From: an uncultured Candidatus Saccharibacteria bacterium
GTDB lineage: Bacteria; Patescibacteriota; Saccharimonadia; Saccharimonadales; Saccharimonadaceae
Direction: 5' to 3'
Assembly (NCBI GenBank): GCA_947166295.1
Contig: CAMVDR010000007.1
Coordinates: 1 to 35,212 of the forward strand
Length of the DNA stretch: 35,212 nucleotides
The position numbers and the translations under genes were made by a program. Positions 1 through 11,255 of the stretch are shown here, piece by piece (position 1 is the stretch's first letter; the number at the start of each line of letters is the position of its first letter). The notes below the pieces were generated by a model. The model had not been told where the DNA came from. It did not search any database and saw nothing but the letters and a program-made list of their open reading frames with translations.

Positions 1-849
1 CATCCAGCCTATCCTCCAGCATTTCGCTACATGCAAGATGTAGACAAATGGAAAAACGAATTAGCTCTGGAAGAAAGCGTACTAGCGGTAGATGTTAGAG
101 ATGGCAAGAAATACTGGGTGACTAAACTTAAGGATGGAAATATCTGGATGACGCAGAATCTAGATTTTGACATCACTACTAATACTACGTTAAACTCCCA
201 AACCACAGATTTGAACGTAGCTTATGATTCTTCTACCGAAAATTACCAAGAATACCAAGATGGATATACCAGTAATAGAAGTATTATTTATTGGAAACCA
301 GCAAATACTGCTACTACGATAGATTTTCAAAATACTGGTCCTATAACCGGCTGGACAAATAATGCCTTTGCACCATATTCTGCCAGCAAGATAGATGATG
401 TAAATACTGGACATACTTCGTTGGGCAATTGGTATAACTGGACCATGGCTATAGCGTCTAACAACTCTTCTAACATAACAAGTGACGAAGAAAAAAATTC
501 TATTTGTCCTAAGGGTTGGAGGTTACCTATGGCCTCGAACAGCGACCAGACTGTTTACGAATTTGGAGATTTGCTATATAAGTACGATATTATTCCGACT
601 AGAACAGCTACCAATTTCGCGAATAATGGTTTTCAAAAAATAAGCTTGCCGCCCTTATGGTTTACCAAATCAGGTTATGTGAGCGGCAGCAGTTTAATGT
701 ATCTAACGGAACAGGGCTATTATTGGGCTTCCACGTCTGATTATCGCAACGCAGCTCACTATCTAGGATATTACAGTGGCGGTATTAGCCTAGCAGGACA
801 AAATAATAATAATGCTTTAGGATTTCAAATTCGTTGCATTGCCCGGTAG
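1..849 (+). CDS. FISUMP-domain surface protein (5'-truncated by window edge)
   Basis: The reading frame is open from base 1 to the TAG at 847-849, so the N-terminus lies outside the window; 282 residues are visible. The first internal ATG (31) is probably not the real start. It matches the Fibrobacter succinogenes major paralogous (FISUMP) domain, a C-type-lectin/FGE-like fold. Visible landmarks are a GKKYWVTKLKDGNIWMTQNL segment near residue 35, ICPKGWRLP in the middle, YYWASTSD near the C-terminus and a terminal GFQIRCIAR. These proteins are usually secreted or surface anchored and occur as paralogue families in Saccharibacteria; their ligand is unknown. The FISUMP match is by recalled motif only. 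The gene is followed within 7 nt by a very long inverted repeat. FISUMP/CLec-fold proteins are one class of diversity-generating retroelement target, but no template repeat or reverse transcriptase is visible here. Confidence 0.8.
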   Translation, partial: HPAYPPAFRYMQDVDKWKNELALEESVLAVDVRDGKKYWVTKLKDGNIWMTQNLDFDITTNTTLNSQTTDLNVAYDSSTENYQEYQDGYTSNRSIIYWKPANTATTIDFQNTGPITGWTNNAFAPYSASKIDDVNTGHTSLGNWYNWTMAIASNNSSNITSDEEKNSICPKGWRLPMASNSDQTVYEFGDLLYKYDIIPTRTATNFANNGFQKISLPPLWFTKSGYVSGSSLMYLTEQGYYWASTSDYRNAAHYLGYYSGGISLAGQNNNNALGFQIRCIAR

Positions 850-855
850 TTTTTT

Positions 856-1034
856 GGCGGGTGGCCGTCACGTATTTTTCTGGTAGTATAAAATTGATTT
901 GGATTTTTAACACGTATATTCCTGACGGTGCCGAGAAAGTTACCCGTAAGGGTAATTTCCCGGACACACAGCGTATGACGTGCTTAAAAATCCAAGTCCC
1001 ACTACCAGAAAAATATGTGCGGGCAGAACCCGCC
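856..1034. repeat. ~179-nt imperfect hairpin (long inverted repeat)
   Basis: The two halves pair almost end to end. Pairings seen are 856-862 with 1028-1034 (7 bp), 869-887 with 1001-1019 (19 bp, one G-U), 899-915 with 978-995 (17 bp, bulged C983), 935-938 with 956-959, and an apical 6-bp stem 940-945/950-955 closed by a GTAA loop (a GNRA-type tetraloop as RNA). The main interruption is an asymmetric internal loop of 11 nt (888-898) against 5 nt (996-1000). There is no T-run after it on either strand, so it is not a normal intrinsic terminator. With the CIRCE region it makes up most of the 370-bp gap 850-1219; 1035-1174 shows nothing I can name. Options are a structured RNA, a MITE-like element, or a DNA cruciform tied to the FISUMP gene. 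Confidence 0.85.
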
Positions 1035-1174
1035 TTATATCGTAGACGCAAGCAAAAGGTTAGTTTTGAGATTATTATACCTTTGCGCGCAGTAAAACCG
1101 CTATTAAAAATTACAGTTTAGAAACTCATTAAGAAAACAAACTCTGAAAGAATTAAATTTGGTTGCAACTACAC

Positions 1175-1219: not shown

Positions 1220-2128
1220 ATGGCAAAACGCGATTATTACGAAATTCTTGGCGTCTCTAAAAACGCCTCTGATGACGAAATTAAGAAAGCTTACCGCAAG
1301 CTAGCTATCAAATACCATCCAGATAAAAATCCCGGCGATAAAGAAGCTGAAGCTAAGTTTAAGGAAGTTTCCGAAGCTCACGAAGTATTAAGCGACAAGC
1401 AAAAACGCGCCCGCTACGACCAATTCGGCCACGCTGGTGTAGGTGGCGCATCTGGTAACCCATTTAGTGGCACCGCTGGCAATCCGTTTAGTGGCGGCAA
1501 TTTCAACTTCAACGGCCAATCCTTTAATTTCGACTTTGGCGGTGGCGGTTTTGATGATATCTTAGGCAGCATTTTTGGCTTTGGTGGTAGTGCCCGGCGC
1601 CCTCGCCGCGGTGCAGATTATCAAACTTCCGTCACTATCACCTTTGAAGATGCTATTTTTGGCACCACCAAAACTATTTCACATAATGGCAGTGATATTA
1701 AAGTTAAAATCCCTGCCGGTATAGACGACGGTATGTCTATTCGCCTACGCGGCAAAGGCGGCGAAGCCCCTGAAGGTGGCGAAAAAGGTGATCTATACAT
1801 TCGCGTCCGCGTCAAACCCCACAAGCATCTTACCCGCGAAGGCACTATCATTTTGTCCGAAGAGCATATTAATATGGTAGATGCCGCCCTTGGCACCGAA
1901 ATAGACGTAGAAACCGTAGACGGCAAAATCACCATGAAAGTCCCTGCCGGTACTCAATCTGGTACTCCGTTTAAACTTTCTGGTCATGGTGTGCCTTTCC
2001 GCTCCAACGGTGATCGTGGTCCACACATCGTCACGGTAATCGTAGAGACTCCAAAGAATCTCAGCAAAAAGCAAAAAGAACTCCTAGAAGAATTCCGAGG
2101 CGCCAAAAAACGTGGCTTCTGGGGCTAA
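1220..2128 (+). CDS. dnaJ: DnaJ-family co-chaperone without zinc finger (type II, CbpA-like)
   Basis: Hsp40 co-chaperone that stimulates DnaK ATP hydrolysis and delivers unfolded substrates. The J domain (residues 4-68) contains the HPD motif at 33-35. A Gly/Phe-rich linker with two NPFSG-type units spans about 72-125. Two C-terminal beta-barrel substrate-binding domains follow (about 133-210 and 211-280). The CxxCxGxG zinc-finger repeats of classical DnaJ are absent and the length is 302 residues, so it is a type II/CbpA-like J protein. The start is fixed by the CIRCE/promoter immediately upstream, and the message appears leaderless. It stands alone: no dnaK or grpE is adjacent, and the next gene is convergent. 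Whether this is the only J protein in the genome cannot be seen here. Confidence 0.95.
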
Positions 2129-2278: not shown

Positions 2279-4105
2279 TTATTGTCCCCGATTAGCATTC
2301 GGGTTAGTAGTAATCAGCCCTTCTTCCGTTTCTGAGGCAATAATTTGAATATGCACGTGATTTTGCCCGGCAAAGAACAACCCTTGTCCTACCGGGAAAT
2401 TAGAAAGCCGACGCCGCTCTTCTTCTGTCAATTTAAACACATCAGATAATACATCTACAGCCGATGCAGATTGCTTCAAGAGTAACTGCATCGAAGAGTT
2501 CGCTACGATCGCTCGGCCCATCTTGGAGCCCATAAAATCTTCCACATCCTGCGTAATCGTCGTGAGGCCCAAGTAATATTTACGTGCCCTCTTCGCGAGC
2601 GAGAACAAGAAGTTCGCCGAATCTTCGTATTTCATTAACTGCCACGCCTCATCCACTATTAGTAGGCGTTTTTTCTGTTGCGCACGTACAATATTCCAAA
2701 TATGCGACAAAACAATATACATTGCCACTGGCCTTAGCTCGTCTTCAAGATCCCGAATATTAAATACCACCATTTGGTTATTAATATCCACATTACTCTG
2801 TTGCGAGAAAATCCCTGCAAAAGTACCCGTGGTGTATTTACGAAGTCTCTGCGCTAGCTGCGGCCCGCTCCCCTCCATATGAAGCAAAGTATCATACAAG
2901 TTCATAATCGTAGGTGGCGTAGATTGATGCGTTAATGGGTCAGAAGTAATCCCTGCCCTAGCATATGTATCAATCAATGCCTGATCTAGATCCGCCTCTT
3001 CATTAGCTGTAAGCGCTGGCACCACCTGCCCGCTAGCGGACATCTGGTTACCACCTAGCATCAGTCTGAATAAGCCGTGTAGCGTCACCAAATTCGCCCT
3101 GAGCGCATCGTTCGCATCTTCTGCATCAATCACTTTTGGTAAATCAAACGGATTAATCCGCACATCCGAGTTCAAAGACAGCCTAATATACGAACCGCCC
3201 ACCGCATCGCATAGCTTTTGATACTCATTTTCTGGGTCGATAATCAAAATTTCGCTCCCCACCATCATTGAACGTAGCGCCTCTAGCTTCACCGTAAATG
3301 ATTTACCAGCACCAGACTTTGCAAACACCACCATATTAGCATTTTCTAGACTAAACCGATCAAAAATCACTAAGCCATTATTATGCATATTGATACCATA
3401 CAAGATCCCCTTATCTTGCGTCAGGTCCGCCGAAGTAAACGGGAAAGACGTGGAAATCGCACCAGTATTCATATTGCGCCGAATCTGCAATTGATCCGTA
3501 CACTGTGGCATAATAGAATTCATCCCTTGCTCTTGTTGCGAATTAGCTACCTTTGAGAAAATCATCTGTTGTCCAAAAATCGTTTCAATCTTCTGTTGCA
3601 CAAATTTCATTTCATCCAAAGAGTCGGCCCATAATGTAATATATAGTCCAAACCGGAAAAACTTTTCCGCCCCCACCTGCAATTGATCACGTAGTTCCTC
3701 TGCATCTGAAATCGCTGCCTCTAGCTCCGGATCACGTACCCGACCTTTCTCGGCATTAATATTCATCGAGGCCTCTAGCTGCGTCACCTTAGTCTTGAGG
3801 TTTTTCATCACTACCGCCGTCTCTACCGGATAAATATACATTGAGACATCTATCACTTCATCAATATTGATAATCGGCGAAATCCACCCCGTATAAAGAG
3901 AGCGCGGATATCCATACACATATAAAGTCCGCCCATATTTATTTCCTAGCCTAAAATAGTCCGAATGTATTTCAATTGCCGAAGGAGAAATCAAATCCCG
4001 TAACGTATTGGTACCCTGCTCAAACGCTTGCTGAATTTGCGCCGCTTCCATCGCCTCATTTTGCGCTGCTATTTCTGCCGCCGTTAGCTTTTTCTTTTTA
4101 GCCAT
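2279..4105 (-). CDS. virB4: VirB4-family T4SS ATPase
   Basis: Cytoplasmic/inner-membrane ATPase that powers substrate transfer or pilus assembly in type IV secretion systems. Walker A is AKSGAGKS at residues 262-269. Walker B is LLIVDEAW at 481-488, followed by a QD-containing sensor-like stretch (about 515-525). The N-terminal 30 residues are Lys/Ala/Gln-rich. At 608 residues it is shorter than classical VirB4 (about 800), and the gene upstream, which overlaps its start by 8 nt, resembles the missing N-terminal TraC/VirB4 region. The two probably work as one unit. It is the last gene of the minus-strand T4SS operon. The ATG is preceded by GAAGGGAG as ribosome binding site. Confidence 0.93.
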   Translation of the reverse strand: MAKKKKLTAAEIAAQNEAMEAAQIQQAFEQGTNTLRDLISPSAIEIHSDYFRLGNKYGRTLYVYGYPRSLYTGWISPIINIDEVIDVSMYIYPVETAVVMKNLKTKVTQLEASMNINAEKGRVRDPELEAAISDAEELRDQLQVGAEKFFRFGLYITLWADSLDEMKFVQQKIETIFGQQMIFSKVANSQQEQGMNSIMPQCTDQLQIRRNMNTGAISTSFPFTSADLTQDKGILYGINMHNNGLVIFDRFSLENANMVVFAKSGAGKSFTVKLEALRSMMVGSEILIIDPENEYQKLCDAVGGSYIRLSLNSDVRINPFDLPKVIDAEDANDALRANLVTLHGLFRLMLGGNQMSASGQVVPALTANEEADLDQALIDTYARAGITSDPLTHQSTPPTIMNLYDTLLHMEGSGPQLAQRLRKYTTGTFAGIFSQQSNVDINNQMVVFNIRDLEDELRPVAMYIVLSHIWNIVRAQQKKRLLIVDEAWQLMKYEDSANFLFSLAKRARKYYLGLTTITQDVEDFMGSKMGRAIVANSSMQLLLKQSASAVDVLSDVFKLTEEERRRLSNFPVGQGLFFAGQNHVHIQIIASETEEGLITTNPNANRGQ

Positions 4106-4985
4106 TATTTTCTCCCTTCCTCACATACATTGTAGCGAGCTTCGAGAAATCCACCAAAGGCTCCCTTACTGCCGTATCCGGATTATTAAAGTTGTAATAA
4201 AGCTCCGCCAGTTCCCGAGTATTTAACCTCACCGAATTAATGCCAATCTGGAACAACCCAGAAATAATCGTGTCTACTCTATTCGTTAATTCAGACAAAG
4301 CCTTGTCATAAGTTGCACGATCTATTCGTGTTACTTCAGGCGCCTTAGATTTAGAAAACGATCTAAAGAAATTTTTGGTCTGTTGCAATGCTTTTTCCGT
4401 ATCCGCTGAAGAATAATATGGAATTACAATGAAAAATGACTTATCCATAATATTCGCCTCTTGCGACAAGATATCTATGAAATTAATATAATCATCCATT
4501 AATACGCCAAGTAACATGTTATCATTATTACGGCGAATTTCAGAAAGTCTCTCAATATACGGACCAATATCTACCCTTTGCGAACGCACCAATATCTGCG
4601 TAGTAAATTTTAGCGAATTCAAGAAATTCTGATAAGAATACTCGATACCTTCTCGTTCTACATCGCTCATCAGGTCAAAGTTAATGGATTTACAAGCTAC
4701 TACCGCCCGGAAAGAGCCATCTTTCATAATCACCACGTTATCACGAAGCTCCGAAATCAAAAGCGTAGACTGCGTAGACGTCGGCGCATCCTTATTTGGT
4801 GAAACCGGCCTCGCTTGGTTCGCCGCCATCGCCGCCGCACCTAAATTCACCGCGCCCGCATTCTGCTGCCCCGGCATCACCATTTGCGGCATTACTTGCC
4901 CTTGTTGCACCGGCTGTCCCATCGGCTGATTTGGCATTATCATCTGCGGCGCATTCTGGTTATTAGTATAATCTTGTGAGTTCAT
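4098..4985 (-). CDS. TraC-N-like protein, probable separate N-terminal module of VirB4
   Basis: 295 residues. The first ~70 are Gln/Met/Pro/Asn-rich and look disordered. From about residue 73 a folded domain runs to the end, with the LISELRDNVVIMKDGSFRAV opening typical of TraC/VirB4 N-terminal domains in CPR genomes. There is no Walker motif, signal peptide or convincing membrane segment. The 3' end overlaps virB4 by 8 nt, so translation is probably coupled. The likely role is to dock the VirB4 motor onto the membrane channel. The match rests on motif memory and on position between prgI and virB4; an independent homologue search would settle it. Confidence 0.72.
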   Translation of the reverse strand: MNSQDYTNNQNAPQMIMPNQPMGQPVQQGQVMPQMVMPGQQNAGAVNLGAAAMAANQARPVSPNKDAPTSTQSTLLISELRDNVVIMKDGSFRAVVACKSINFDLMSDVEREGIEYSYQNFLNSLKFTTQILVRSQRVDIGPYIERLSEIRRNNDNMLLGVLMDDYINFIDILSQEANIMDKSFFIVIPYYSSADTEKALQQTKNFFRSFSKSKAPEVTRIDRATYDKALSELTNRVDTIISGLFQIGINSVRLNTRELAELYYNFNNPDTAVREPLVDFSKLATMYVRKGENNG

Positions 4986-4988
4986 AAT

Positions 4989-5924
4989 TTAGTGTAGCGA
5001 TATAAAAACTTCGCCCTCGTCCTTTCTATTTATACGGTTAGCCTCTTTTGCAATCGTTTCTATGGAAAAAGCATCATTGTTTGCTAATTCAATTATACTA
5101 GGTTTCGGTGGAATTGTGGGCGCTTTTTCAGCCGTTGCCTGATTTACCCTATTAGACTTTTCCACAGGTTTTTCCACAACTGGAGAATTTGGCAAAATCA
5201 CTGTTGGTGAGTTAAAAATCTCTTCTCTAGATACTGGCATATTTTGCATTTGTTGCTGCGGCGAACCCACCGGCACCGTTGGCTTCATCTCCGCAAAACG
5301 TTTTTCTAGCTGAGCATTAGACATTGCAATATTCTCCGTCTCGCTAATTGCCTGTTGCATCTCTCTTACCACCTCAGCATGTCGCTCTGTTTCGTCTTTT
5401 TGTATTACGTTACTCAAATTATTAAAATGATTACCTTCGAACATATCCGCTGTTGCATTAGCCTCAGCAATCAGATCTTCTCGCATCGGGTTACTACCAG
5501 CACCTTTGATTGCATAGCCACCCGTATCAACAATATCCGCCAAAAAAGACAAACGGTGCGTAGCCTCCTCTCCGGTAATGTCTCGCGTACGGCTTTCCTC
5601 TACTTTTTTAGGTGCCGTAATCTGAATAGTAGATTCTCTTTGTCCTGGCATCCAAAGTCTAGTTCGCGGCTTCAAATAATACGACACGATTGCCGCAAGA
5701 TACGTTTCCATCGGTTGATCTTTTTTTAGCGGCAAAGCCAAAGCCACAAAAAGCAGAACCGGCGGCAACGGAATAATTGCAAGTAGTGGGAATAACTGAA
5801 AAAGTCCCACTGCCAGCGCAATCAACCCACCGGCAATCAAAAGATATACAAACTGCCGAAAACTAAACGGGCCTAAGAGTTTATCGTCGGCCTCAACGTC
5901 TTGAGGGACTTTATACTGCGCCAT
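4989..5924 (-). CDS. PrgI-family T4SS membrane protein (VirB3-like)
   Basis: Small inner-membrane component of Gram-positive-type conjugation/T4SS machines, comparable in position to VirB3. Residues 1-20 (MAQYKVPQDVEADDKLLGPF) match the PrgI opening. Two hydrophobic helices follow at about 24-44 and 46-66, then a conserved YLKPRTRLWMPGQ segment. The remaining ~220 residues are hydrophilic and low complexity, so the protein is far longer than the usual ~100-150 residues. The tail contains VEKPVEKS, encoded by a TTTTCCACA-type tandem repeat also found at 16178 and 17519. Three bases separate its stop from the TraC-N-like start. Its own -10 boxes and an upstream terminator suggest it can be transcribed independently of the TrbL-like gene. 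Confidence 0.85.
   Translation of the reverse strand: MAQYKVPQDVEADDKLLGPFSFRQFVYLLIAGGLIALAVGLFQLFPLLAIIPLPPVLLFVALALPLKKDQPMETYLAAIVSYYLKPRTRLWMPGQRESTIQITAPKKVEESRTRDITGEEATHRLSFLADIVDTGGYAIKGAGSNPMREDLIAEANATADMFEGNHFNNLSNVIQKDETERHAEVVREMQQAISETENIAMSNAQLEKRFAEMKPTVPVGSPQQQMQNMPVSREEIFNSPTVILPNSPVVEKPVEKSNRVNQATAEKAPTIPPKPSIIELANNDAFSIETIAKEANRINRKDEGEVFISLH
5158..5178. repeat. Tandem TTTTCCACA motif inside the prgI-like gene
   Basis: TTTTCCACA occurs at 5158-5166 and 5170-5178, a 12-nt period that keeps the frame and encodes Val-Glu-Lys-Pro-Val-Glu-Lys on the minus strand. Each unit fits the bacterial DnaA-box consensus TTWTNCACA. Nearly the same tandem occurs at 16178-16197 and 17519-17552. 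Confidence 0.75.
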
Positions 5925-5926
5925 AT

Positions 5927-5939
5927 ATTATATATTATA
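5927..5939 (-). promoter_or_regulatory. Double TATAAT in front of the prgI-like gene
   Basis: On the minus strand TATAAT occurs at 5934-5939 and again at 5927-5932. They end 9 and 2 nt before the ATG at 5924. The distal box would place the transcript start within about 2 nt of the ATG. No good -35 box is visible, so function is inferred. Confidence 0.55.
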
Positions 5940-5961
5940 ACATAAAACATTGTATAAGCAT

Positions 5962-5993
5962 AAAGAAAACCGCCTATACGCTTACTTAGGCGA
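5962..5993 (-). terminator. Intrinsic terminator after the TrbL-like gene
   Basis: Read on the minus strand, CGCCTA (5992-5987) pairs with TAGGCG (5976-5971) across a 10-nt loop and is followed by GTTTTCTTT. It lies between the TrbL-like stop and the prgI-like start and would attenuate read-through into prgI-virB4. Confidence 0.7.
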
Positions 5994-6012
5994 TTTCCCT
6001 ATAAAACCTACT

Positions 6013-9000
6013 CTAAGCATCCGGATAATTATCTTCGTCTTCTAGTAAATCTCTTAAGAATTTGTATAATTCTATATTGTCCGCATTTGGATCATCTTGG
6101 CTATAATAGTGTTCGTATTTCTTCACGATTAGCGAATCTTCTCCAAACCATTTTCCGAGTTGTTCCTTGGTATCCTCAAAGAAAAGCGCTGGCTCTTCAT
6201 CCATAATCCTGTCTTTCAGATCTCGCATTTTATTTAGGAAATCTTCCCTATCAGACGCATCATACACTCTAGCTGGTCTTGCCTCTTCAGAATCACCTTC
6301 ACCGCGCCCCCCAGCAGCTTTCTTTGCCTTTAGCTGCTCGTCATAAAAATTCATTTCTTTACGTAATGCTTCTTCATCATCCAAGTTTACCCATCTACGC
6401 AACCAGTCTTTGGCGTTAATTGCTGTACCACTCGTCCTCGTTCTATAAATTTGGCGCAATTTACCAGTTTCACCCAAGATCTTCCTCACTTGTCTACCCG
6501 CAAGTTCCATCTTCAACTGTTTCAAATCTTTACTTCTCAACTTCTGAGCTTCTTCCGGTGTCTTATCTGCGTATCTATTTTGTATCTCAGCGCGAGCCAT
6601 CTCATATTTTTGCTTTCTCTCGCTAGAACTTTCGTCCGCCGAACTACCCTCCAGATACGAATTCACCAAATGTTCCATAGTTGCATCACGATAGTCCGTC
6701 CGCATGCCCAAAATTTGCCCAGTAGTCTGATCCTTAAAATAATCATTAGTCTTCTTACGATAGTATTTTTCAACTTCATCCCCATGACTACCAAAACCAT
6801 TACCTTTGTCATCCCACACTGGCACTAAATCATATTCAGGATCACCATTCTCATCCACCACCATCTTACCGTTCTCTTTCTTCTGCTTCAATTCATAACC
6901 CGTCCAAAACTTCACCCCACTATTTATCTGTTCGCTACCAGATAGCCATTTCAAGCTGGCCGACAAAAACGCTGGTTCAAAAGCAGTCTGAATTTCTTCG
7001 CGCTTTCTTAACCACCCGGATACATCCCATTCTTTTTCTGGATGATCTTTATCAAACCCATAAGCCTTCTTCAAGCTATCATCCAAGTTAGACAAGGCAG
7101 TACGTTCAATATTGTCAAGTGAGGTACCCTCCATCAACTGGCGCATACCTTTTTTGGCGTACATACGACCAGTCGGGTTCCCTTCCGTTACCGCCTCGCC
7201 ATCATGATAACCTTTCACATACTCATCATATGTTACACCCATTACTTTACGATCGTTGCTATTATAAGCCCGTGCCGTTTCCAAATTAATATACTTGCCA
7301 AACCGCCTCAAAAATGGGTCGTTATCTTTCACTTCAAACATTAAGAAACTAGCCAAGGACTGTGAAGCATGCGTTCCGAGATTAATCCCACCACCAATAT
7401 TTACATCCAACAAATTATCTAGCTGCGTCTTAAGCAAATCAGTATCGCCACGTTGATTTAGAATCCTAAGCCCAGGCACAATCAAATCTATATTACTCGC
7501 CGCTTCCTTCATCTTCGTTAATTCACCTAGCCTAAACTCTACGTCTTTAGTCGGCGCCGTCAATTCAAAATATTTCTGCATCTTAGATTCCATCAGTTTC
7601 TTCTGCGTATCATATCCCTGAGCCGCCGTTGCCGCCGCATATTGAACGTCACTTACGCTACCTTCCATAATACGGCTTACTGCAGAATAACGCGCTCGCG
7701 CCTCAGCATTAGCTTGCGCATTCGTAAAATGAAACTTATAATTGTCTTTCTTAACTCGTTCGCCAGTAGCCTGATTAATCTCATAACCCTGGATATCATC
7801 CATGTGCGCGTTAATCGCCGCTTCCATCCTTTGGTGGAAGCCAACAGCATTATCATACTCAATTCTTTCACCACGAGCCTGCTCCGCTTTTAATCTATCA
7901 GAAGCGTTCACATTAGCCATATCCAATCTATCCAAACGCGCTCTTCTGCTCGTCCCTTTTTCAGCCATATAGCCAAAACCTTTATTGAAATTGTTCTTAT
8001 CCCTTAGGCTTACCTGTTGATATTCCATAATTTTAGCTTGCCGTGCATATGCCTCTTCACCTTTTCTAGACAAAGGCCCACCATAAATGTCCCCATTCTT
8101 ATAATTCTTTCTAGCCTTGTATGCTAAACCTCTTTCTTTCACTTCCGCAGCCCGCTCATCAGTTTCAGCATCTCGCGCAATTTTCCGGTTAGACACAAAT
8201 TGCATCAACCTCAATGACGGCGTAACCGCTCGCCCCGACGACAAATATTTTTGCTTCGTATTTAATCTATGCGAATCTGCCCACGCCCGGTTTGTAGCCA
8301 AAGGCTTCGCCGCCAATGCGTGCATTTTGGCATTGATTGTCCCCAGAAACGTTCCAGACATTTGCATTAATTTCCAAGAAAAGAAAAGTGGGAAAATTTG
8401 CACTGCAGTACCAAGCAACACTCCAAAACCATCTTTTGCGCTTGCAACAATCGCAAACCCCGCCAAACTGGACGCCCCAAACAGTAATGAAAACATTGGG
8501 TAAAATACCAACATTTTCACTAACAAATTCTTCCATTTCTTAAACCATTGCTCTGTATTGGGCAAAATATACGCCACAATTGCCAATGGCGATATCATAA
8601 TTAGTAATGCAACCACTGCCTGTCGCAAAGCAATAGTAATCAACCCCGTAACTACCGCTACAATCGCGCCCAATAATACCGGTATAAGCATCCAAATCAC
8701 ACCAGTCTCCACGGCTATTGCGCCACCTAGCACCGTCAATGCCGCACCGCCCGCCATAGAAGAATATACCTTCGCATACGTAATTTTTGCCTCAACTGCC
8801 GCATCGCCAGCCACGGGTGCAGCCGCACTACTTGCTATTACTGATTCTTCTACCGAAGTAAATACTCCCCTCAAACCGTTTCCTACTATGTTGGACATAT
8901 CCACAGCTAGCGAACAAATCAAAAAGCTCAAATTTACCAACAGCGCCGTTACTATCAATTTTGGCAGCACTTTTTTAATACCATAATTAGAAATCCCCAC

Positions 9001-9513
9001 ACCGGTAATTTGCGAATAAATCACAACGAGCAAAAATATAACAAATACTATATTTGTCAAACTCAAACAGTATTTCCAAATTTCATAAATTGGCGAGCCG
9101 TCTTCAGTTGATACCGGATCAATCTTCAATATACCCTCTATCTTATCGTACAACCAATCCACCGCTTCAGCAATCTTACCAGTTGTTGGACACACTAACC
9201 AACCAATTTCCCCCAAGCTATCCTTACATGTATCGGCCGTCATGTTATTAAGAGTCGCAAAAGCCCCTTCACCCTCAGTCTTAGCCTCATTTTCTCCATT
9301 CTCCTCACCATTCGCGTCTGCATCCCCATTCGTAGCTTCACCATCGTTATTATTACCCGTATTCGTCTCACTCGTTTCTGGATCTGCATAAGCTATGTCC
9401 GACATTAACACCGTTCCAAACACCCCCACCATCACGCCCATCATAACCAAAAAAACACCAAAAACGGTCTTAAAAACATCTTTTTTTGATCTTTTTTTCG
9501 TTATCATAGACAA
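6013..9513 (-). CDS. TrbL/VirB6-like T4SS membrane channel protein with a giant C-terminal tail
   Basis: Predicted polytopic inner-membrane T4SS channel subunit, 1166 residues. A signal-peptide-like helix (about 12-42) ends at AYA-DP and is followed by an acidic Asn/Glu/Gly-rich stretch (45-83). Two Cys (96, 108) flank a short segment, then hydrophobic helices fill about 150-395. The core contains LRQAVVALLIMISPLAIVAY and the following WFKKWKNLLVKM, a pattern typical of CPR TrbL/VirB6 proteins. Residues ~400-1166 are charged, helical-looking and lack membrane segments; their role is unknown. The start given is TTG (9511-9513), 5 nt after a GGAGG; an ATG two codons later (9507) is possible but spaced 11 nt. 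It heads the minus-strand T4SS operon behind a consensus promoter. Confidence 0.85.
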   Translation of the reverse strand: MSMITKKRSKKDVFKTVFGVFLVMMGVMVGVFGTVLMSDIAYADPETSETNTGNNNDGEATNGDADANGEENGENEAKTEGEGAFATLNNMTADTCKDSLGEIGWLVCPTTGKIAEAVDWLYDKIEGILKIDPVSTEDGSPIYEIWKYCLSLTNIVFVIFLLVVIYSQITGVGISNYGIKKVLPKLIVTALLVNLSFLICSLAVDMSNIVGNGLRGVFTSVEESVIASSAAAPVAGDAAVEAKITYAKVYSSMAGGAALTVLGGAIAVETGVIWMLIPVLLGAIVAVVTGLITIALRQAVVALLIMISPLAIVAYILPNTEQWFKKWKNLLVKMLVFYPMFSLLFGASSLAGFAIVASAKDGFGVLLGTAVQIFPLFFSWKLMQMSGTFLGTINAKMHALAAKPLATNRAWADSHRLNTKQKYLSSGRAVTPSLRLMQFVSNRKIARDAETDERAAEVKERGLAYKARKNYKNGDIYGGPLSRKGEEAYARQAKIMEYQQVSLRDKNNFNKGFGYMAEKGTSRRARLDRLDMANVNASDRLKAEQARGERIEYDNAVGFHQRMEAAINAHMDDIQGYEINQATGERVKKDNYKFHFTNAQANAEARARYSAVSRIMEGSVSDVQYAAATAAQGYDTQKKLMESKMQKYFELTAPTKDVEFRLGELTKMKEAASNIDLIVPGLRILNQRGDTDLLKTQLDNLLDVNIGGGINLGTHASQSLASFLMFEVKDNDPFLRRFGKYINLETARAYNSNDRKVMGVTYDEYVKGYHDGEAVTEGNPTGRMYAKKGMRQLMEGTSLDNIERTALSNLDDSLKKAYGFDKDHPEKEWDVSGWLRKREEIQTAFEPAFLSASLKWLSGSEQINSGVKFWTGYELKQKKENGKMVVDENGDPEYDLVPVWDDKGNGFGSHGDEVEKYYRKKTNDYFKDQTTGQILGMRTDYRDATMEHLVNSYLEGSSADESSSERKQKYEMARAEIQNRYADKTPEEAQKLRSKDLKQLKMELAGRQVRKILGETGKLRQIYRTRTSGTAINAKDWLRRWVNLDDEEALRKEMNFYDEQLKAKKAAGGRGEGDSEEARPARVYDASDREDFLNKMRDLKDRIMDEEPALFFEDTKEQLGKWFGEDSLIVKKYEHYYSQDDPNADNIELYKFLRDLLEDEDNYPDA

Positions 9514-9540
9514 ACCCGCCTCCCTTCAAGGCGTAAACTT

Positions 9541-9569
9541 ATTATAGCACGCATAAGCTTTTTTGTCAA
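9541..9569 (-). promoter_or_regulatory. Perfect consensus sigma70-type promoter for the T4SS operon
   Basis: On the minus strand: TTGACA (9569-9564), exactly 17 nt, TATAAT (9546-9541), with a TGC extension before the -10. This is the best promoter in the window. Transcription would start near 9534, leaving a short leader that contains the GGGAGG ribosome binding site (9524-9519). Confidence 0.92.
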
Positions 9570-9652
9570 TATATATTACAGATATTTCATATACGTGTCA
9601 ATTATATTACATAACTTTTATGCTATTTATATTTGGGCTTTTTCAATTTTTA

Positions 9653-9661
9653 TGGTAATAT
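9653..9661 (+). promoter_or_regulatory. Probable extended -10 promoter of the pilin gene cluster
   Basis: TGGTAATAT (TG at 9653-9654, -10 TAATAT at 9656-9661) lies 21 nt before the ATG at 9683 and diverges from the T4SS operon promoter. No strong -35 is visible. Confidence 0.5.
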
Positions 9662-9682
9662 AAAATCAATTAACTGGATTCA

Positions 9683-10435
9683 TTGATGAAACATTTAACA
9701 AAAAAAATATTGCTACTTTGTGGGATTATTTTAGCCGCTTCTTTCGTTTATAACTTCATGACACCATCTCCAGTATCGGCTGACTGTAGATATTTTCTAG
9801 GCATGACCTCTTGGGACTGCAATATAGTTGAGCAAGTTACTAGCGATGATCAGTTAAAAAACAATATCTGGACCATCGCCGCTAACGTAGCCACTGATAT
9901 TACTGTTATAGCCGCCTACCTCATTATTGGCTATGTCATTTATGGCGGCTATCTCTATACTTTCTCAGGCGGAGACCCAGGCAAAGTTGCTACCGGCAAA
10001 AAAGCCATTGCTCAAGCTTTCATCGGCCTAGCGATTGTCATGTCCGCCAATGTCATACTTAATTCCATTCGCATTGCTTTAGGTGCAAATTTTACAAAAA
10101 ACTGCACAATAGCCGGTGAGTGCTATGGCCTAGATACAGACACGAACGCTGCAGGCACCATGATTCTTGGGACAATAAGGTGGGTAATCGGTATAGCAGG
10201 AGTAGTGTCCGCCATTTTTGTAGTTTACGGCGGAATCTCTTATACAACTTCTACAGGTGATCCGGGTAAACTTAAAAAAGCCAAAGATATGATCACCTAT
10301 GCCCTCATTGGTCTTGCTATTGTTGCACTAGCTGAAATCATCACGGCTTTTGTTTCCAATATAATCCGCGAAGCCAACCAAGTATCTTTAACAACTACCA
10401 CAAAGGAGTATTATGAAAATCAAAAAAATAGCTAA
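9683..10435 (+). CDS. VirB2/TrbC-like pilin with two tandem pilin domains
   Basis: Predicted secreted/membrane pilin subunit. The signal peptide spans about 1-33 with likely cleavage at VSA-DC. Two copies of the same VirB2/TrbC unit follow, at about 62-134 and 158-228. Each has a first helix, then YGG-x-x-YT-x-S-x-GDPGK, a basic loop and a second helix (AFIGLAIV or ALIGLAIV). Two Cys pairs (35/46 and 141/147) precede and separate the domains. Single-domain VirB2 proteins are ~100-140 residues, so 250 residues reflects an internal duplication or fusion. Its last 23 nt overlap the next pilin gene, suggesting coupled translation. An extended -10 box lies upstream. Confidence 0.88.
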   Translation: MMKHLTKKILLLCGIILAASFVYNFMTPSPVSADCRYFLGMTSWDCNIVEQVTSDDQLKNNIWTIAANVATDITVIAAYLIIGYVIYGGYLYTFSGGDPGKVATGKKAIAQAFIGLAIVMSANVILNSIRIALGANFTKNCTIAGECYGLDTDTNAAGTMILGTIRWVIGIAGVVSAIFVVYGGISYTTSTGDPGKLKKAKDMITYALIGLAIVALAEIITAFVSNIIREANQVSLTTTTKEYYENQKNS

Positions 10436-10889
10436 AATCATATTCTTTACAGCAATTGCTGCCATAGGAATCACAACATTGACGCCAACGCATACTTTTG
10501 CCGATGACATCTGCGGCAATAGCAACATTTCACCAGAGATCCAAGCTGCATCTGGCTGTCCTAACACCGGTGCAAAAATCAATGATCTACCTACTGTCAT
10601 TCAAAACATCCTCAATGCCATCATAGCAGTAGCCGGCATAGTCTCAGTCGTCTTCATTATCATTGGCGGTATCCAATACACTACATCTGCCGGAGATCCA
10701 GGAAAAACCAAAAAGGCCAAAGATACCATCCTATATGCCCTAATCGGACTCATCATCTGCGCCTTATCTTTTGCAATCGTCAATTTTACTATCAGCAGAA
10801 TAATATACAATAACAATTCCTCCTCCGAAGATGATCAATCCGCATACGAAGATGCCAGCAGCACCTGGATTTCTAGCAACCACCAATAA
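10413..10889 (+). CDS. VirB2/TrbC-like pilin
   Basis: 158-residue predicted pilin. The signal peptide spans about 1-30, cleavage near TFA-DD. Two Cys lie in the short mature N-terminus (residues ~34 and 49). The pilin unit comprises helix 1 (about 65-85), the loop GGIQYTTSAGDPGKTKKAKD, and helix 2 ending in AIVNFTISRII. A Ser/Asp-rich tail of ~25 residues follows. The start ATG lies inside the previous gene, after AAAGGAGT as ribosome binding site. It is a paralogue of the pilins at 9683, 10953 and 12565. Confidence 0.88.
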   Translation: MKIKKIAKIIFFTAIAAIGITTLTPTHTFADDICGNSNISPEIQAASGCPNTGAKINDLPTVIQNILNAIIAVAGIVSVVFIIIGGIQYTTSAGDPGKTKKAKDTILYALIGLIICALSFAIVNFTISRIIYNNNSSSEDDQSAYEDASSTWISSNHQ

Positions 10890-10897
10890 TCTCCCTA

Positions 10898-10926
10898 TTG
10901 CACTTTTTTTAAAAAAGTTATAAAAT
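10898..10926 (+). promoter_or_regulatory. Promoter of the third pilin gene
   Basis: TTGCAC (10898-10903), 17 nt, TAAAAT (10921-10926), with an AAAGGA ribosome binding site about 8 nt before the ATG at 10953. The third pilin can therefore be expressed separately from the first two. Confidence 0.65.
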
Positions 10927-10952
10927 ACAATCAAGTAATTAAAGGACAAATA

Positions 10953-11255
10953 ATGAAAAATATTCTCACTCAATTCGCTCTAGACACCAAAGTCGATGAG
11001 TTAAAATATGATACAGGCGACACTTTCTCCTCTTCTTTCCAGGGTATCCTAAATGCCGTTATTGGCGTATTGGCGCTTGTAGCTGTAGTAGTTATGATTG
11101 TCGGCGGTGTTAGCTACATGACTTCTTCTGGCGACGCAGGCAAGGTTAAAAAAGCCAAAGATACTATCCTTTATGGCTTAATCGGCCTAGTAGTTTGCGT
11201 ATTAGCATTTGCCATCGTCAACTTCGTTATTAGCCAAATCATTGGTTCAAATTAG
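10953..11255 (+). CDS. VirB2/TrbC-like pilin without signal peptide
   Basis: 100-residue predicted pilin. Unlike its three paralogues it has no N-terminal signal peptide: the first ~30 residues are polar and no Cys pair is present. The pilin unit is intact, with helix 1 (about 33-52), VGGVSYMTSSGDAGKVKKAK, and helix 2 ending in FAIVNFVISQII. The first helix could itself direct membrane insertion. It has its own promoter and ends at a strong terminator. An alternative is that it stays in the membrane as a scaffold rather than being processed into a fibre. Confidence 0.87.
   Translation: MKNILTQFALDTKVDELKYDTGDTFSSSFQGILNAVIGVLALVAVVVMIVGGVSYMTSSGDAGKVKKAKDTILYGLIGLVVCVLAFAIVNFVISQIIGSN

Follow-up and report, generated by a model that had tools for sequence, protein, structure and literature searches.

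What is the long hairpin that directly follows a surface-protein gene at positions 856–1034 of a Saccharibacteria contig? No other inverted repeat in the whole 35-kb window (the complete stretch of DNA analysed, 35,212 nucleotides) is as strong. RNA folding of positions 840–1050 gave −97.4 kcal/mol against a mean of −53.1 (sd 4.2) for dinucleotide shuffles (z −10.5), and none of 200 shuffles matched the native fold energy. The fold is built from a 7-bp base stem (GGCGGGT/ACCCGCC), a middle stem of around 19 bp and a long upper stem. These values bear out the long hairpin of the initial annotation, whose described stems and GUAA loop were all found; its start is indeed the seventh base after the FISUMP stop codon (847–849), and neither end carries the U-run of a terminator, as had been stated. 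We find that the hairpin belongs to a dispersed family of palindromic elements of one Saccharibacteria genus, named family A here. The features of the locus are listed below.

1–849, plus strand: 3′ part of a FISUMP-type surface protein gene (open ORF running off the window start; stop codon at 847–849)
856–858, plus strand: left host flank GGC, inverted-complementary to the right flank GCC
859–1031, plus strand: palindromic element body of 173 nt, from GGGTGGCCG to CAGAACCC, with ends set by near-identical copies at unrelated sites
896–998, plus strand: conserved core, matched by covariance model R1 with 104 bits (E 3.1e-21), the window copy being among the sources of the model
914–927, plus strand: near-invariant left-arm motif GTATATTCCTGACG, from alignments
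946–949, plus strand: apical GTAA loop (GUAA in RNA), from the fold
969–980, plus strand: near-invariant right-arm motif CAGCGTATGACG, from alignments
1032–1034, plus strand: right host flank GCC, inverted-complementary to 856–858
785–1117, minus strand: stop-free frame of 110 codons spanning the whole element, not claimed as a gene
1043–1074, plus strand: lone arm GTAGACGCAAGCAAAAGGTTAGTTTTGAGATTA of another long palindrome family, from comparison with contig C8 of the same genome and with the related genome G080
1220–2128, plus strand: intact dnaJ-like gene downstream (ORF; 93% identical in G080)

The peptide of the minus-strand frame at 785–1117 resembles the insert peptide within host genes (..LRVTFSAPSGIYVLKIQI..; compare locus L076). 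The window copy, 173 nt long and located between the FISUMP gene and dnaJ, is itself an ordinary intergenic member, and the interest rests with the family. It could be regarded as a terminator or an mRNA 3′-end stabiliser of the FISUMP gene, since it starts 7 nt past the stop codon and other FISUMP genes here also precede long palindromes. We consider such a role improbable, however, because the 3′ flank GCCTTATATCG lacks the U-run of an intrinsic terminator and most family copies lie away from gene ends. Most likely, the window copy is a mere passenger behind the FISUMP gene, either neutral or selfish. Elsewhere in the window, a cluster at 2279–11255 resembles a VirB4/type IV secretion region, and several small two-helix membrane proteins are encoded in tandem at 9683–11255.

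Family A is dispersed within one genus

Further places with the same sequence were identified by blastn in the genome that holds the window (767 kb in 30 contigs), and six copies were recognised there by the covariance model R1, which has 104 positions and 34 pairs and was derived from 18 copies. R1 copies are present in 24 of 60 sampled genomes of the same genus, with none detected in the other 36. Among 380 genomes sampled across the phylum, which were scanned with stricter filters and few candidates scored per genome, three were positive, all of the same genus, and no copies were found outside it. Furthermore, scanning 84,980 species genomes for the exact motif returned 110 loci, and among the matches listed 80 of 80 belong to Candidatus Saccharibacteria MAGs. 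The listed records come mostly from ruminant gut and in some cases from termite gut, the names of the records being the source for the termite host. The host genomes were assembled from metagenomes, and every named copy comes from MAGs. Phage cargo was considered as an origin and rejected, as the IMG/VR viral collection gave zero exact motif matches.

A total of 147 distinct copies were identified in the gathered loci, with a body mostly of 171–180 nt. The copies in trmD (L232) and alaS (L285), two unrelated genes, are 98.3% identical over 174 nt, and this identity breaks off at GGGTGGCCG and GGACCC, which defines the ends of the element. Two nearly identical copies in different genes of one genome were also observed at L196 (94.5% over 183 nt) and again at L191, suggesting recent spread.

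Family A resides in frame inside housekeeping genes

Ninety-six of the 147 distinct copies are located in frame inside long host ORFs. This in-frame residence inside essential genes is the key feature of the family and was unforeseen by the initial annotation. One minus-strand frame of the element is used by 65 of these 96 copies and one plus-strand frame by 19, with the remaining 12 in other frames. The host genes are mostly housekeeping genes, and those confirmed by NCBIfam comprise dnaX, tsaD, lepA, cysS, der, sbcB, trmD, obgE, tatD, xthA, mnmA, valS, pheT, pcrA, alaS, polA, pyrG, uvrA, recJ, recG, argS, priA and others. Many host genes are hit at the identical place across several species, and two copies are carried by one protein in tsaD (L240 and L100) and mnmA (L287). 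Many hosts belong to DNA replication and repair (dnaX, polA, recJ, recG, uvrA, sbcB, xthA, pcrA and priA); further hosts are tRNA synthetases and tRNA-modifying enzymes.

As "genic" was the label given to copies in an open frame, their lack of stops is in itself a partly circular argument; what counts is the naming of the genes, the rule on length and the existence of orthologs without insert. Among the copies with both ends recognisable, 21 of the 23 genic ones have a body length divisible by 3, compared with 8 of the 29 others (Fisher p 3.8e-6), which argues for translation of the genic copies and against ribosome bypass. From their sequences, the genic copies are predicted to be translated as a loop of roughly 45–60 residues on an otherwise normal enzyme, with insert peptides such as ..TSYTGTPAEPSLR.. 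and ..YIPDGPDR... The inserts might instead be removed during expression, by ribosome bypass or splicing, so that they would be missing from the finished proteins; yeast mitochondria are known to have such bypassed hairpins (cited in PMC6649704). Yet removal needs neither lengths divisible by 3 nor stop-free frames, and both hold here. The mitochondrial "byp" element, a ribosome-skipped insert, likewise does without an open frame or a multiple-of-3 length, in contrast to the 21 of 23 divisible lengths and the open frames of family A. We therefore regard removal as very unlikely and translation of the inserts as the preferred reading.

Inserts in TatD and XthA

The loop between YGIHP and IGEVGLDYH was compared in 29 TatD orthologs and proved cleanly bimodal at one site. 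Nine orthologs have no insert, with a loop of 31–44 residues and a DNA fold z of −1.8 to +0.4, whereas loops with a palindromic insert span 55–93 residues overall, with z from −2.2 to −10.3. Family A accounts for 3 of the 29 orthologs (loop of 80–82 residues) and other palindromes for 17. In XthA, the core matches H. pylori XthA (8igi) with a TM of 0.86, and the alignment with solved ExoIII structures is interrupted at exactly residues ~70–120, a region with an AlphaFold pLDDT of 34–42 and no secondary structure (one model). Selection would remove the insertions that break genes, and the in-frame ones may remain in disordered surface loops.

Pairing is maintained and host flanks are inverted-complementary

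The pairing of R1 is highly conserved, with 98.2% of cells forming standard pairs and 17 of 34 pairs showing double changes (0 of 500 shuffles). In some copies, the arms have been rewritten in concert. Differences between genic copies fall on codon positions 1, 2 and 3 at 39, 29 and 32%, respectively; selection on the encoded peptide was rejected for want of a codon-position bias, and the peptide itself thus seems free to change, while the pairing is retained.

The initial annotation would have taken compensatory changes as support for an RNA, and such changes are present, although at dispersed sites and inside ORFs rather than at a conserved position. A functional structured RNA, either 6S-like or a regulatory mRNA element, would account for the stable long rod with a bubble and for the strong covariation. 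Against it, the Rfam gathering scan of the window returned tRNA only, with no match to the 6S covariance model; the positions vary, a genome can hold several copies, the 96 copies in coding frames lie in either orientation, and 36 of the 60 genus genomes have none detected. The 6S resemblance is accordingly abandoned, and we consider a structured RNA of any such kind extremely improbable.

The host bases outside the element ends differ among copies, and the left and right flanks are mutually complementary over 3 to 12 bp. The mean best inverted flank match is 5.50, compared with 2.89 in swapped controls (sd 0.17), and the complementarity fades with distance from the element. In tsaD of genome G078, the inverted flank measures 12 bp and overlaps, on one side, the codons of the conserved LRE: orthologs that lack this insert read LREALPEAYFP, and the inserted gene reads LRER..element..RSRSAHFP. 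This has the appearance of fold-back copying of one flank into the other. Inverted flanks could also result if the element enters small palindromes that are already there.

These flanks bear directly on the closest of the three guesses in the initial annotation, a mobile MITE-like repeat. Its covariance search for copies does recover dispersed copies in the host genome and its relatives, and the element is many-copied and genus-restricted; what it lacks is the direct target-site duplication and the Y1 transposase partner of a classical MITE. A classical MITE is a non-autonomous transposon with terminal inverted repeats that is moved in trans by a transposase and leaves direct target duplications. 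Family A is short, terminally inverted, multi-copy and dispersed, with near-identical copies at unrelated sites in one genus, as this reading requires. Direct flank repeats are nevertheless at the control level (1.54 vs 1.58), with no direct target-site duplication, and the flanks are inverted instead. Moreover, Y1 (RAYT-type) transposases, the one family searched, gave matches in 3 of 60 genus genomes and none in the copy-rich G005, G007, G078 and G080; the genome of the window holds only a 45-position fragment. A classical MITE is thus unlikely, and a RAYT/REP system was rejected because the Y1 transposase is practically absent from the genus.

Family A behaves like the palindromic elements of Rickettsia

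By analogy, family A works like an RPE, and homology to RPEs is not claimed. RPE-1 to RPE-8 (RPE-4/6/7) and the Wolbachia WPEs are likewise many dispersed palindromes between and inside ORFs that leave the frame intact (PMC3767692, PMC2229807). RPEs are palindromes of 100–150 bp in ORFs without frame loss, with different groups near one site in some genes (PMC3767692); family A is a repeated palindrome slightly longer than this, is inserted in ORFs without frame loss, and has empty orthologs. Both reside in housekeeping genes, with pheT common to both, and RPEs occupy solvent-exposed positions, where members of more than one palindrome group can be found at similar sites in a single gene (PMC3767692, PMC2229807). 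An RPE-carrying guanylate kinase is translated and active (PMC2229807). Family A differs by its longer body, two main coding frames and different phylum, as well as by copy-specific inverted flanks, a property measured in family A alone. The exact-motif scan, whose 80 listed loci of 110 are all from Candidatus Saccharibacteria, gives no sign of homology to RPEs or of occurrence in Rickettsiales, and family A is therefore not filed as an RPE. Taken jointly, that family A is real, resides in frame and behaves like an RPE is very probable.

Other known systems share fewer properties. REPs tagged GTAG or CGTC are also short palindromes, some of them intragenic in several bacteria, and the CGTC type has no dedicated transposase (PMC3733652); they are 20–40 bp long with an unpaired tetranucleotide tag, whereas family A is a single rod of ~175 nt with paired ends. 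Bacterial MITEs (Correia/NEMIS, ERIC and RUP) resemble family A in their 100–200 bp, inverted termini, dispersal and stable transcript fold, and some are fused in frame (PMC2229807). Terminal inverted repeats and dispersed copies are found in family A as well; what sets it apart from MITEs is that no direct target duplication or Y1 partner transposase was found. Nematomorpha mitochondria also carry long inverted repeats inside coding genes, but there the arms encode conserved native protein, with no added insert and no repeated sequence family (PMC6649704).

Selfish palindromes within protein genes have so far been a curiosity of Rickettsia and Wolbachia, documented mainly in Rickettsia, and the open-access literature gave us no account of coding palindromes in Saccharibacteria or CPR. 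The same kind of element now appears in an unrelated phylum of reduced-genome episymbionts. Its 96 in-frame insertions, spread over more than 20 named gene families, are enough to test where proteins tolerate insertions, and the numbers also make testable the self-copying of palindromes and inverted flanks as the mark of a transposase-free route. Annotation is affected too, because core proteins of these bacteria carry non-native inserts.

Different palindromes occupy the same sites

The genome of the window (G000) was compared with its nearest relative, G080 (dnaJ 93% identical). In lepA, family A is present in G000 and a different in-frame palindrome at the same spot in G080. Beside tig, family A is found in G080 and another palindrome in G000; between FISUMP and dnaJ, family A is in G000 and a different palindrome in G080. 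The apical sequence ATCCGGCGTGAGACG is common to the G000 palindrome near tig and the G080 palindrome upstream of dnaJ; the two genomes thus hold the same pair of families at these two sites, but the other way round. Neither a transposition event nor a base-exact empty site was seen, because at the window locus, in lepA and beside tig the sister genomes carry another palindrome. The palindrome family with the lone arm at 1043–1074 is complete by a FISUMP gene on contig C8 and also, in G080, upstream of dnaJ; in the window, its other arm seems to have given way to family A. By an inverted-repeat scan across loci, we also located a second coding family (..SGSRPAGPSPRADGANPRAAALRNPP..) with 19 distinct palindromes, 17 of them in ORFs (mnmA, alaS, dnaX, tatD and others; L201, L203, L220, L231, L286, L305 and other loci).

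This sharing of sites, together with the flank complementarity that fades with distance and the concerted arm rewriting in some copies, might suggest that the palindromes are not mobile and that each grows locally by template switching from small inverted repeats, with the similarity between sites being secondary. For template switching, both the creation and upkeep of hairpins (PMC8794818, PMC7202029) and changes to coding sequences (PMC8604942) are documented. However, the 147 copies have a common asymmetric sequence with near-invariant motifs, and two are 98.3% identical at unrelated loci, which independent local growth cannot explain; we hold this reading to be quite unlikely. Quasipalindrome template-switch mutation (PMC7202029, PMC8794818) explains the concerted arm changes and the pairing into the flanks, but it is a process rather than an element and leaves the dispersal of family A unexplained.

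The scarcity of Y1 transposases, the inverted flanks and the concerted arm changes together fit copying through a hairpin intermediate combined with template switching. New copies may arise via a hairpin (single-stranded) intermediate that is processed by general replication enzymes or by enzymes acting in trans, and template switching between the arms during replication would keep the palindrome near perfect and extend its pairing into the host flanks. We infer that this hairpin-templated route of spread is the best fit, and we put it forward tentatively, at somewhat below even chances. A broader proposal, that a whole class of elements is spread and maintained by fold-back synthesis without transposase, making inverted target copies, with several unrelated families of this genus turning over at the same permissive sites of essential genes and adding peptide loops to core enzymes, is conceivable but rather unlikely.

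Several smaller observations were made on palindromes of these genomes. The FISUMP-type family is large, with 48 matches in the genome of the window (contigs C1, C2, C8, C19 and others), and at least four FISUMP genes (in the window and on C8, C1 and C19) are directly followed by long palindromes of different families. CGTC/GTCATTGCGAG-type repeats were rejected as a source, being not enriched in the loci. The RecJ of a termite-gut Saccharibacterium (L195:3–1844) carries, besides family A, an insert CHCEEQSDEAIQ..PRNDAQ from a GTCATTGCGAG-type palindrome. Finally, a short hairpin repeat, AAAAATGGCACCGCAAGGGTGCTATATCC, occurs at L099 (1763–1800) and in about 30 places in G000 and G080.
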